From the NCBI RefSeq assembly GCF_900168265.1, contig NZ_FVZF01000003.1:1-64000 (forward strand): DNA of 64,000 bases. The letters are read 5' to 3'. Positions 1 through 3,292 of the stretch are shown piece by piece. This DNA is from Salegentibacter salarius (lineage in GTDB: Bacteria; Bacteroidota; Bacteroidia; Flavobacteriales; Flavobacteriaceae). Both the position numbers and the translations under genes were made by a program. Positions within the stretch are counted from its first letter, which is position 1, and every line of letters starts with the position of its first letter. Under the pieces are notes generated by a model that was given only the letters and a program-made list of their open reading frames with translations, did no database searches and had not been told where the DNA came from.

Positions 1-752
1 ACGCTACTTTTATGCGGATGAAAGATGATTATATGCAAAATGGGCAATTAAAACCCGGGTATAACCTTCAGGCCTCCACCAATAATCAGTTCATCACCAA
101 TTATACCTTAGCCCAAACCACCGCCGATACCACTACCTTAAAAGACCACTTGCAAGATCACATAAACTCCTACGATCAAACACCTCAAAGCCTTACCGCA
201 GATGCCGGCTATGGCAGTGAAGAGAATTATACCGATTTAGAAGAAAAGCAAATTACTGCTTATGTGAAATACAACTACTTCCACAAAGAGCAACGCGATA
301 AAAAGCACCGAGAAAACCTATTTCATCCAGACAATCTGTTCTATAATAAAGAAACCGATACGTATTATTGCCCGATGGGCCAGGCGATGAAGAAAGTAAA
401 AAGTTATAAGAGTGAAACCACTACCGGTTTTAAGCAGCAGATCCATCGTTACCAGGCCGCCAACTGCAAGGGGTGCCCTTTGCGGGGCAGCTGCCATAAA
501 GCTAAAGGGAACAGGACTATCGAACGTAATCACAACCTGATTCGCCACAAGGAAAAGGCCAGGAACCTACTACTAAGTGAAGCGGGAATAGCACATCGCA
601 AAAGAAGGTGTTGGGATGTAGAAGCTGTGTTTGGAAACATCAAGCAAAACATGGGCTTTAAGCGGTTTATGTTGCGGGGAATGGATAAAGTAACTACTGA
701 AATAGGATTAATAGCTATGGCGCACAACTTAAGAAAATTCAGTATAGCATAA
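1..752 (+). CDS. IS1182-type transposase, 3' part (cut by window edge)
   Basis: C-terminal part of a DDE transposase that would cut and move an insertion sequence. The reading frame is open to base 1 (codons before the first ATG at base 12 read on in frame), so the gene starts outside the window. Visible landmarks are the QNGQLKPGYNLQ segment, the catalytic Asp in TADAGYGSEENY, a CPMGQ...CKGCPLRGSCH cysteine cluster and the C-terminal WDVEAVFGNIKQNMGF with the last acidic residue, all typical of the IS1182 (IS5-like, Tnp_DDE_2/6) family. It ends with NLRKFSIA, a normal family end, so the 3' end is intact. Whether the element is complete cannot be seen. Family assignment is confident; activity is not known. 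Confidence 0.85.
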   Translation, partial: ATFMRMKDDYMQNGQLKPGYNLQASTNNQFITNYTLAQTTADTTTLKDHLQDHINSYDQTPQSLTADAGYGSEENYTDLEEKQITAYVKYNYFHKEQRDKKHRENLFHPDNLFYNKETDTYYCPMGQAMKKVKSYKSETTTGFKQQIHRYQAANCKGCPLRGSCHKAKGNRTIERNHNLIRHKEKARNLLLSEAGIAHRKRRCWDVEAVFGNIKQNMGFKRFMLRGMDKVTTEIGLIAMAHNLRKFSIA

Positions 753-892: not shown

Positions 893-984
893 AAATAAAA
901 AAAGGCGGATCATTGATCCACCTTTCTTTGCCCCAAATCTACCATGAACTTAACCTACTTATGTTATGGTGACTCTAAAGTATA
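893..984 (-). ncRNA. Small-RNA-like unit, copy A
   Basis: On the minus strand a promoter-like TTG-18 bp-TATACTTTA (box at 976-984) is followed by about 75 bases ending in a terminator, GGTGGATC AAT GATCCGCC plus a T run (stem bases 904-922). The block from CATAAGTAGG to GGGGCAAA is identical to copy B, 350 bases away. A weak 5' hairpin pairs CCAT with ATGG. The terminator stem uses a G-U pair only on the minus strand. An ATG in the conserved block (MVDLGQRKVDQ) gives only 11 codons and differs from copy B afterwards, so I favour a non-coding RNA. Function unknown. Confidence 0.5.
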
Positions 985-1078
985 ATGAATAAACCTTGCT
1001 CGCAACTTTTTTAGACCAATGGCATATTTATTTGTTAAAGTATTGAAAATCAAAAAATAATGTAAGATAATTTTGATT

Positions 1079-1140
1079 TTACTCGATAATCGAGATTAAA
1101 TCCTCCGTCCCGAAGAATCGGGATGCCTCGAAATCAAATT
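1079..1140. repeat. TTACTCGATAATCGAG repeat plus TCCCGA hairpin
   Basis: Begins with the palindromic core CTCGATAATCGAG followed by ATTAAATCCTCCG, then TCCCGA-AGAA-TCGGGA, then TCGAAATCAAAT. Related copies lie at 4337, 14553 and 37260 in this window, so it is a dispersed intergenic repeat. No coding potential seen. Confidence 0.6.
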
Positions 1141-1239
1141 TATTTTCCAATAATAATTCTGTGTGAGCTTGCTTCGAAATTGTTTACTTACAATTCACCT
1201 GAATGATTTCCTTTTGAAGAAGTTTGAGGTTCGGATAAA

Positions 1240-1332
1240 AATAAAAAAAGGCAGATCGTTAGATCCACCTTTTTTTGCCCCAAATCTACCATGAACTTAA
1301 CCTACTTATGTTTATGGTTCTGCTAAAGTATA
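1240..1332 (-). ncRNA. Small-RNA-like unit, copy B
   Basis: Second copy of the unit at 893-984. On the minus strand TATACTTTA (1324-1332) precedes CCATAAACATAAGTAGG, the shared block, and a terminator GGTGGATC TAAC GATCTGCC with a long T run (stems 1250-1257 and 1262-1269). The stem has two G-U pairs on the minus strand that would be A-C mismatches on the plus strand. It starts about 60 bases after the purF stop codon, so it could also act as the purF terminator, but its own promoter-like box and the second copy argue for a separate transcript. Confidence 0.5.
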
Positions 1333-1393
1333 TAAACTTATTCCTGCTAAAAATCATTTTAGATGAAAGGCAGAAAAATTTGTTTAAATGCAC

Positions 1394-3292
1394 TTAATAG
1401 GCTCTTCCTTCGTTTCCTTCGTAGAAATTAATAAAAGCTCTATTCACCACGCGATTACCTCCATTGGTTGGATAGTTACCCGTAAAATACCAGTCACCCA
1501 GGTTTTTAGGGCAGGCTTTATGCAAATTATCTACCGTTTGGTATATCACCTTCACATCTGCCTTTACATCAGTGTCACAAAGCAATTCTGAAATTTTATC
1601 TGAGATCTGCTCATCGGTAAAAGGTTCGTAGATTTCCTTAACGAAATTCTTCACTTCTTCATCGGCAAGATCTACCTGCAGTTTACATTTCTCGTAAACC
1701 TTTTCTACAATATCGTATTGGTTATTATCTTTTAAAAGCTCCAGGGCTGCCCTAAAAGCAACAAGACCTTCCAGGCGCGCCATATCTATACCATAACAAT
1801 CTGGATAACGAATTTGTGGAGCCGAAGAAACTACTACAATTTGTCTTGGATTTAACCTGTCCATCATTTTTATGATGCTTTTCTTTAAAGTGGTTCCCCT
1901 AACAATACTATCATCTATAATTACCAGGCTGTCTTCCGGTTTAACCACCCCGTAGGTGACGTCATAAACGTGGGCAACAAGATCGTCCCGGCTGCTATCT
2001 TCAGTAATAAAAGTTCTAAGCTTTACGTCTTTGATCGCAATTTTTTCGGTGCGTAACCTGTGAGCAAGTATTTCCTGAAGTCGCGCATCGGTTAAAGTAT
2101 CTTTTTCAGCTAGAATTGCATCGTTCTTCTGCTTGTTTAATTCATCCTGTGCGGCTTCTACCATTCCGTAGAAACTTGTTTCCGCGGTATTCGGAATAAA
2201 AGAGAATACCGTATTGATGGTGTCGTGGTTTATAGATTTCAAAACTTCAGGCATCAATAAGCGCCCAAGCATTTTACGTTCTTTATAGATCTCGGCATCG
2301 CTTCCGCGGGAAAAATAAATACGTTCAAAAGAACAGGCTTTTCGCTCTAATGGCTCAAGGATTTCTTTAATATTTACCTCGCCGCTTTTTTTGGTAATAA
2401 TAGCGTGTCCCGGCGGTAATTCGTGAACATCATTAAAGTCTACATTAAAAGCAGTTTGAATTACCGGCCTTTCTGATGCCACTACAACCACCTCGTCGTC
2501 TTTGTAATAAAATGCGGGACGAATTCCTGCAGGATCACGTAAAACAAATGAATCTCCGTGACCTAACAATCCTGCCATAGCATAGCCGCCATCCCAGCTT
2601 TTAGATGATTTTCTAAGAATTTTTGCGACGTTTAATTTTTCAGCAATTATAGGCGAAGCCTGTACTTTACTAAAACTTTTTTTCTTTAACTTCCTGTATA
2701 GCTTTTCTACTTCAGAATCCAGGAAATGGCCAATTTTTTCCATTACCGTAACGGTATCGGCCTTTTCTTTTGGATGTTGCCCTAATTCCACCAAACTATT
2801 AAAAAGCTGGTTTACATTGGTCATATTAAAATTCCCAGCCACAATCAGGTTACGGTGCATCCAGTTATTCTGTCTAAGAAATGGGTGTACACTTTCTATA
2901 CTATTCTTACCAAAAGTCCCGTAGCGAACGTGCCCAAGATAAACTTCACCTACATAGGGAAGGTTCTTTTTTTGCAGATCAACATTATCGGCATATTCCG
3001 GGTTTGCTTTAATTTCGTCGTTAATTCTCCCATTGATCTGTTCAAAAATATCCTGAATTGGTTGTGCCGCGTTAGATCTAATTCGGCTTATATAGCGATC
3101 TCCAGGGGCGGTATTTAATTTGATGTTAGCAAAACCGGCGCCATCCTGGCCGCGGTTATGCTGTTTTTCCATCATTAAATACATCTTATTAATCCCGTAA
3201 AAGGCAGTACCATATTTTTCTTTATAGTATTCCAGGGGTTTTAACAATCGTATTTGGGCAATCCCACATTCGTGTTTTAAGGCGTCACTCAT
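1394..3292 (-). CDS. purF: Amidophosphoribosyltransferase (long Bacteroidota form)
   Basis: First step of purine synthesis: transfers the amide of glutamine to PRPP to give phosphoribosylamine, in the cytoplasm. Starts MSDALKHECGIAQ; Cys9 is the expected N-terminal nucleophile of the class II glutamine amidotransferase domain once the first eight residues are removed, and KQHNRGQDGAG near 43-53 is the matching active-site segment. The type I phosphoribosyltransferase loop VIIDDSIVRGTT lies at 457-468. At 632 residues it is well over 100 longer than the roughly 505-residue E. coli enzyme; the extra material is spread through the middle and C-terminus, as is usual in this phylum. Follows a PfkB kinase on the same strand after a terminator, so it probably has its own promoter. 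Minor alternative: a PurF paralogue. Confidence 0.93.
   Translation of the reverse strand: MSDALKHECGIAQIRLLKPLEYYKEKYGTAFYGINKMYLMMEKQHNRGQDGAGFANIKLNTAPGDRYISRIRSNAAQPIQDIFEQINGRINDEIKANPEYADNVDLQKKNLPYVGEVYLGHVRYGTFGKNSIESVHPFLRQNNWMHRNLIVAGNFNMTNVNQLFNSLVELGQHPKEKADTVTVMEKIGHFLDSEVEKLYRKLKKKSFSKVQASPIIAEKLNVAKILRKSSKSWDGGYAMAGLLGHGDSFVLRDPAGIRPAFYYKDDEVVVVASERPVIQTAFNVDFNDVHELPPGHAIITKKSGEVNIKEILEPLERKACSFERIYFSRGSDAEIYKERKMLGRLLMPEVLKSINHDTINTVFSFIPNTAETSFYGMVEAAQDELNKQKNDAILAEKDTLTDARLQEILAHRLRTEKIAIKDVKLRTFITEDSSRDDLVAHVYDVTYGVVKPEDSLVIIDDSIVRGTTLKKSIIKMMDRLNPRQIVVVSSAPQIRYPDCYGIDMARLEGLVAFRAALELLKDNNQYDIVEKVYEKCKLQVDLADEEVKNFVKEIYEPFTDEQISDKISELLCDTDVKADVKVIYQTVDNLHKACPKNLGDWYFTGNYPTNGGNRVVNRAFINFYEGNEGRAY

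Follow-up and report, generated by a model that had tools for sequence, protein, structure and literature searches.

A Predicted Tandem Small RNA Downstream of purF, Conserved Across Most Sampled Flavobacteriaceae

We describe two tandem units on the minus strand of Salegentibacter salarius, downstream of a purF-like gene, each of which looks like a complete small-RNA gene of 74–76 nt with a predicted transcript, and which recur in most sampled genera of Flavobacteriaceae. The unit is very probably a free-standing small-RNA gene, judging by its conserved anatomy, and taken as a whole it is best read, with reasonable though not strong confidence, as a LytTR-activated, multicopy, trans-acting regulatory RNA. 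The window is the whole stretch of DNA analysed, 64,000 nucleotides long (bases 1–64000 of one contig); the genome to which it belongs was searched as 3.33 Mb in 48 contigs. The anatomy, structure, conservation, promoter position, distribution and synteny reported below are read from the sequence.

Results

The preliminary description had reported the same block twice on the minus strand, about 350 bases apart; the two copies indeed lie 347 bases apart. In a blastn search of its own genome, copy A returned copy B at 91% identity (E 1.7e-29), and since the next match stood only at E 0.3, the genome holds two copies and no wider repeat. Copy A occupies positions 1243..1318 (76 nt; predicted +1 at 1318, the A of ACC, and end of the T run at 1243), and copy B positions 897..970 (74 nt; +1 at 970, end of the T run at 897). 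Folding (z -4.25 for copy A and -4.60 for copy B), alignment and covariation all back the two as small RNAs; the covariance model R1, which had both in its training set, gives them 91.6 and 98.1 bits, respectively. The order of parts is the same in both: a 5' hairpin with loop GUAGG (1288..1318 in copy A, 941..970 in copy B), the unpaired stretch AGAUUUGGGGC, and a covarying terminator hairpin. Both RNAs share one fold, in which the 5' hairpin is made up of ACCAU, AAC (an extra A being optional), an A.A mismatch, a further three pairs and the loop. The linker AGATTTGGGGC (1277..1287 and 930..940), unpaired in the folds and near-invariant, is a candidate seed or protein site. The intrinsic terminator, comprising A run, stem and T run, spans 1243..1276 in copy A, where terminator scan and covariation agree on it, and 897..929 in copy B, where it is drawn from fold and covariation, a simple scan having listed only a plus-strand stem there; in the folds of both copies the A run pairs with the U tail. 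Differences between the two hairpins keep pairing through G-U on the minus strand only, as had been proposed, and the plus strand gives A.C mismatches. Just past copy B, at about 838–876, lies a further hairpin flanked by A and T runs (AAAGAGGCTGTCTAAAAAGTATTTAGATGGCCTTTTTTT, minus strand), probably a terminator for convergent transcription.

Across relatives, the seven sequences folded gave z values from -2.9 to -7.7. Covariation was scored on 42 copies out of the 71 distinct copies listed. In these, 7 of the 11 pairs of the terminator helix change on both sides, with a covariation score that none of 500 shuffles reaches; its number of pair types, however, is no higher than shuffling gives, being reached in 376 of 500 cases. 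The 5' helix of the same 42 copies is nearly unvarying, with no both-sided change. When the 5' module was represented by 34 variants from 333 copies, 96.2% of cells paired, the loop, 3' arm and linker were nearly invariant, and both-sided change was confined to two pairs, in four cells. Among 500 shuffles, the score is reached by 8 and the number of both-sided pairs by 82. A control with the partners slid by +2 yields eight both-sided cells, yet only 21.5% of its cells pair. Given these mixed statistics, comparative support for the 5' hairpin, assigned from folds, variants and pair counts, is modest. Its clearest cases are L024 (13 perfect pairs) and L125/L183 (GGC with GUC), and the 5' module of L120 does not adopt the fold. 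Terminators from one locus resemble each other more (0.85, with 15 of 79 pairs identical) than do terminators from different loci (0.77, with 88 of 4957 identical); concerted evolution of the copies was considered and set aside, this likeness being explained equally by shared descent.

The sequence TATACTTTA, noted earlier as preceding each block, holds a putative -7 box, TACTTTAG, on the minus strand at 1323..1330 in copy A and 975..982 in copy B (-12 to -5), ending in both cases 5 nt before ACC. The predicted +1 is placed at the A of ACC because the sigma-A box TAnnTTTG sits at -12 to -5 (PMC9723704). In a profile of 329 distinct upstream regions anchored at ACC, positions -12 and -11 are T and A (88% each), -8 and -7 are TT (99% and 92%) and -5 is G (71%); the distance from promoter to 5' end is thus fixed over the 329 regions, as in a free-standing small-RNA gene. 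Farther upstream, two LytTR-like half-sites, located from the position profile and the promoter model R2, lie at 1379..1390 (-72 to -61) and 1357..1370 (-52 to -39) before copy A, and at 1031..1042 and 1009..1022, in the same two registers, before copy B, all on the minus strand. Over the 329 regions the half-sites share C, TTT, C and A in the same register with a 20 bp period (good examples of the pair: TGCATTTCRTCTAAAA), so that tandem copies have a regulatory box in common, recovered in the window by R2. LytTR sites are described as repeats of 9–11 nt with 10–13 nt between them, mostly upstream of -35 in activated promoters (PMC4847170, PMC11347149), and without a common consensus (PMC4847170); direct repeats of this layout, upstream of the core promoter, are what we find. 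The YpdB site, GGCATTTCAT twice (PMC4847170, PMC11347149), is likewise a direct repeat upstream of the core promoter and comes close to the TGCATTTCRT of the small-RNA promoters. Six candidate LytTR proteins are encoded in the genome itself. We therefore predict, as fairly probable from sequence likeness, that a LytTR-type activator acts on both promoters.

R2 is a sequence-only promoter model; its 46 rows were chosen from the 121 regions retained out of 330. Upstream of the two +1 positions, the 76-base stretches score 44.1 (copy A) and 40.1 bits (copy B), both being among the rows of R2, so that the scores are not independent of the model. Elsewhere in the genome nothing exceeds 15.5 bits, and the five loci examined have no common theme. 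The DNA between the copies had been called unrelated; this fails for these 76 bases, where the same activator-like box and promoter recur. The interval between the copies also includes, at 1065–1150, a segment bearing a CCCGATTCTTCGGG palindrome. Of the 387 loci retrieved, 10 match it, all of them, judging by coordinates, copies of this same place, and none from another genome does; as a whole the segment folds no better than shuffles (z -0.79). It may be a small insertion, since copy spacing is larger here than in most related loci.

The upstream neighbour in the window, given for context, is a purF-like gene of 632 aa (1394..3292, minus strand), so named from synteny and from its best NCBIfam match, TIGR01134 purF (130.4 bits, below the cut-off of 350). 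An exact-pattern scan of named genome contigs returned at least 116 stretches. In all 97 of the named loci that show purF, the array lies downstream of it on the same strand, 75–139 nt separating the last aligned purF residue from the array start in all but three; purF is not seen in the other 19 of the 116 loci listed, several of them at contig ends. A convergent sodA follows just after the array in 172 of 204 loci, which overlap in part with one another, and is never found in another orientation; among the 116 named loci listed, 91 have sodA and 79 both genes. One copy is present in 50 of these loci, two in 57, three in eight and five in one, so that 66 of them hold two to five, as the window holds two. 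In Salinimicrobium the locus is broken: L109 has purF without sodA, and L119, L151, L153 and L176 have sodA without purF (recJ replaces purF upstream in L119, and L151 and L176 look alike by eye), each of the five retaining a copy. In L098, L115 and L192 copies stand with neither gene in the 8-kb locus, which counts for a free-standing, trans-acting gene. In the window, the place expected for sodA is taken by the contig end and by a fragment at 3–752 (plus strand) of an IS1182-like transposase, its C-terminal part running off the contig start (NCBIfam 233.7 bits against a cut-off of 270; model positions 254–484 of 488); other Salegentibacter loci have sodA here, on the corresponding side of the array.

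By blastn, all 15 Salegentibacter genomes carry the element, and in the family sample it turns up in 163 of 199 genomes, covering 162 of 198 genera; of the 165 good genomes, 143 have it. With R1, scores above 65 bits were reached by 40 of the 50 family genomes listed in an order-level sample (296 genomes searched) and by 31 of the 38 listed in a phylum-level sample (345 searched). The order sample also held 24 genomes of other families with 29–36 bits, taken as terminator noise, and none of the 307 non-family genomes of the phylum sample exceeded 65 bits (best 37.2). These two samples thus contain no confident R1 match outside Flavobacteriaceae, a result in which distant relatives could be missed, R1 having been built from family members and stricter filters applied in both. 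The 80 titles listed from the exact-pattern scan are Flavobacteriaceae genera, besides some bins placed no further than Bacteroidetes or Bacteroidia and a few oddly named ones (e.g. Algicola). Extra copies lie off the main-array contig in three genomes (G003, contigs C24 and C13; G013, C19 and C21; G014, C133), and L383, from G010, has at about 1000, outside the main array, what looks like a degenerate copy of the RNA (AGGTAAGTTATGGTAGATTTGGGGC, one strand). Viral contigs contain no element by exact pattern, nor do phages and plasmids by blastn. An IS end or mobile repeat, one of the outcomes that would have undone the preliminary description, was rejected: the own genome has two copies only, the flanks are conserved, viral contigs, phages and plasmids have none, and the block is conserved outside this locus.

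No Rfam family claims the element, in keeping with the earlier failure to link it to one. At gathering cut-offs the window matches nothing but a tRNA, and 17 related loci nothing but Flavo-1 in two, outside the element. Flavo-1 (RF01705), the comparison urged at the outset, is absent from the matches up to E 10, in a search whose library does detect it in L077 (2451–2531, minus strand) and L114 (5116–5193, plus strand), about 110–140 nt upstream of sodA on the same strand. The trpB motif, sraA and other weak Rfam rows fall below their cut-offs and align mainly through the terminator. In architecture the RNA resembles several described ones, and by the tests made it is a member of none. Yfr1 of cyanobacteria (PMC2190773), 54–69 nt long, has like our RNA two stem-loops around an unpaired conserved stretch, the 3' one being the terminator, and is likewise lineage-wide with a conserved place, beside guaB and trxA rather than purF and sodA. 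This is a likeness of layout only: its ultraconserved 11-mer ACUCCUCACAC is absent here, where AGAUUUGGGGC stands instead, its loops are not conserved, it belongs to another phylum, the Rfam library search gave no Yfr1 row, and the parts of PMC2190773 used mention neither tandem copies nor a response-regulator box. LhrC1–5 of Listeria (PMC4132741) are also multicopy, with a promoter per copy, and depend on a two-component system; their unpaired stretch between stem-loops, a feature common to LhrC, Yfr1 and our RNA, is reported to pair with target mRNA. They differ in their CU-rich motifs, their regulator LisR and their phylum, and in our case regulator and target are putative. NsiR1 of Nostoc (PMC9045159), of about 60 nt, is arranged in tandem copies whose promoters each carry the same motif, some diverged; with 12 copies, a DIF1 motif, heterocyst control and an overlap with hetF, it is unrelated in sequence. 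Nearest by host are the Rfp RNAs of Flavobacterium psychrophilum (PMC9723704), which are independent RNAs from another member of Flavobacteriaceae. There are 85 of them, and ours could be among these; the main text of that paper names neither purF nor sodA, and Rfp18 pairs through a third stem-loop, which our RNA does not have. A literature search that included six sequence stretches found no description of the element within its coverage, most subscription journals and supplementary tables lying outside it. We call this a new RNA family of a known kind, the Rfp RNAs having been compared through the main text alone.

Discussion

A free start and terminator, an upstream box shared by the copies, additional copies elsewhere and a core that hardly varies are what one would expect of a regulatory RNA that acts in trans. 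The preliminary description offered two readings, separate small RNAs that each have a promoter and a terminator, or a repeated regulatory 3' module; box register, covariation, copies away from purF and family-wide occurrence support the former, and a 3' module of purF is unlikely because copies occur without purF. Transcription, the regulator, base pairing and the targets are the parts of the explanation that we infer. A LytTR-type response regulator would bind the half-sites at about -70 and -50, upon which RNA polymerase with the housekeeping sigma factor would initiate at the A of ACC, and an RNA of about 75 nt would stop at its own terminator. Acting in trans, this RNA would pair with target mRNAs through the unpaired AGAUUUGGGGC and the 3' arm GUUCAUGGU, the weak 5' hairpin being able to open and free that arm, and the pairing would alter translation or stability of the target; tandem copies may boost dosage or speed.

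Base pairing is the mode of action towards which we lean slightly. As the target searches were negative or uninformative, it is the likeliest mechanism by analogy and not by demonstration. The genus shows no enrichment of perfect complements to the 14-mer of 3' arm and linker: there are 55 hits beyond the small RNAs themselves, and 61 for the reversed control. For the linker complement GCCCCAAATCT, 26 sites lie outside the copies, compared with 15 for the control, and there is no convincing start region in 21 of the 26 (20 regions read); the sites read are mostly antisense inside coding frames, one of them recurring in four genomes. Start-codon masking had been hinted at by the pattern TTCATGGTN{0,5}AGATTT, met in 100 of 247 class genomes and at several loci lying on the other strand of gene starts, and was rejected given the genus result for the 14-mer. 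Start regions of the neighbours give modestly better duplexes than shuffles, with means of -18.0 against -15.3 kcal/mol for sodA (156 regions) and -16.7 against -15.6 kcal/mol for purF (78 regions). In 139 sodA start regions, however, 7-mer seeds do not stand out (linker 0, loop 2 and 3' arm 4, against 2, 0 and 1 for the reversed controls), so that the sodA excess is treated as composition, and both genes were set aside as targets.

The near-invariance of hairpin and linker exceeds what a short seed needs, which counts against base pairing and brings in its main rival, protein binding. On this view an RNA-binding protein would recognise both AGUAGGUUA, the invariant part of the 5' hairpin, and the linker GAUUUGGG, the RNA serving as decoy or cofactor without need of an mRNA partner, and copy number would set how much protein is titrated. 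We hold this to be rather unlikely, although the conservation of loop, 3' arm and linker and the negative target searches speak for it, as does the binding of the FopS RNAs of Bacteroides to the RRM protein RbpB; yet FopS, though protein-bound, acts by pairing (PMC11697453). The same RNAs suggest another alternative, for which we see only a small chance, that ours is the Flavobacteriaceae branch of FopS/GibS, with the same seed and the same mode at start codons. FopS (RF04319; PMC11697453) belongs to the same phylum, is multicopy with a terminator at its end, and has in its seed region UUCAUGGU and AGAUUU, which our RNA shares with a 3-nt gap. These shared letters are a lead: the alignment score of the unpaired parts is reached by 98 and by 114 of 5000 shuffles (about 2%) and, with a cheaper gap, by 380 (8%), the figure depending on gap cost and on the side shuffled. 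Membership fails in any case, with 17.3–20.2 bits against a gathering cut-off of 56, the element at 17.3 bits ranking ninth in its own genome, and perfect start-codon complements are not enriched. FopS also has an unpaired 5' stretch leading into the terminator with no consensus 5' hairpin, where such a hairpin forms in ours, and in the loci examined it is dispersed rather than tandem.

Conservation of place invites a cis role, in which the units, lying between purF and the convergent sodA, would provide 3' ends or insulation, or would be antisense to sodA read-through, their promoter likeness being secondary. The fixed position wherever the two genes are shown (purF is upstream at each of 97 named loci, sodA convergent at each of 172 loci) and the better-than-shuffled sodA duplexes would suit this; it is nonetheless improbable, since L098, L115 and L192 carry copies without either gene, the core is conserved far beyond what a terminator needs, no 7-mer seed is outstanding in sodA start regions, and sodA often has its own place for an end in between. 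Least probable by far is a small peptide encoded by MVDLGQ(K/R)K. Its ATG frame is open in most copies, but it runs from 8 to more than 30 codons, enters the terminator, and is shifted to MVRFG by one extra base; that the peptide is not conserved further, as first described, is thus borne out by its many end lengths. The reading as a regulatory RNA acting in trans remains the one that we prefer.

Flavobacteriaceae have been called an understudied family (PMC9723704), and the small RNAs characterised in it are few. Since its core is near-invariant across 162 of 198 sampled genera, its predicted start is precise to one base, and it has a fixed locus and a predicted activator box, the RNA is a ready test case: a single probe design would suit many species, the whole array would be removable as one locus, and the RNA could be used as bait for small-RNA partner proteins of Flavobacteriaceae. 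It also merits an Rfam entry. A bolder possibility, which we advance tentatively, is that the RNA is part of the regulatory core of the family: a tandem array driven by a signal through LytTR control, retained between purF and sodA across Flavobacteriaceae, and acting as a global post-transcriptional regulator whose partner, protein or mRNA class, would be new to Bacteroidota. The presence of a near-identical RNA in most sampled Flavobacteriaceae probably means that an important, undescribed gene regulator is at work in common marine and soil bacteria.
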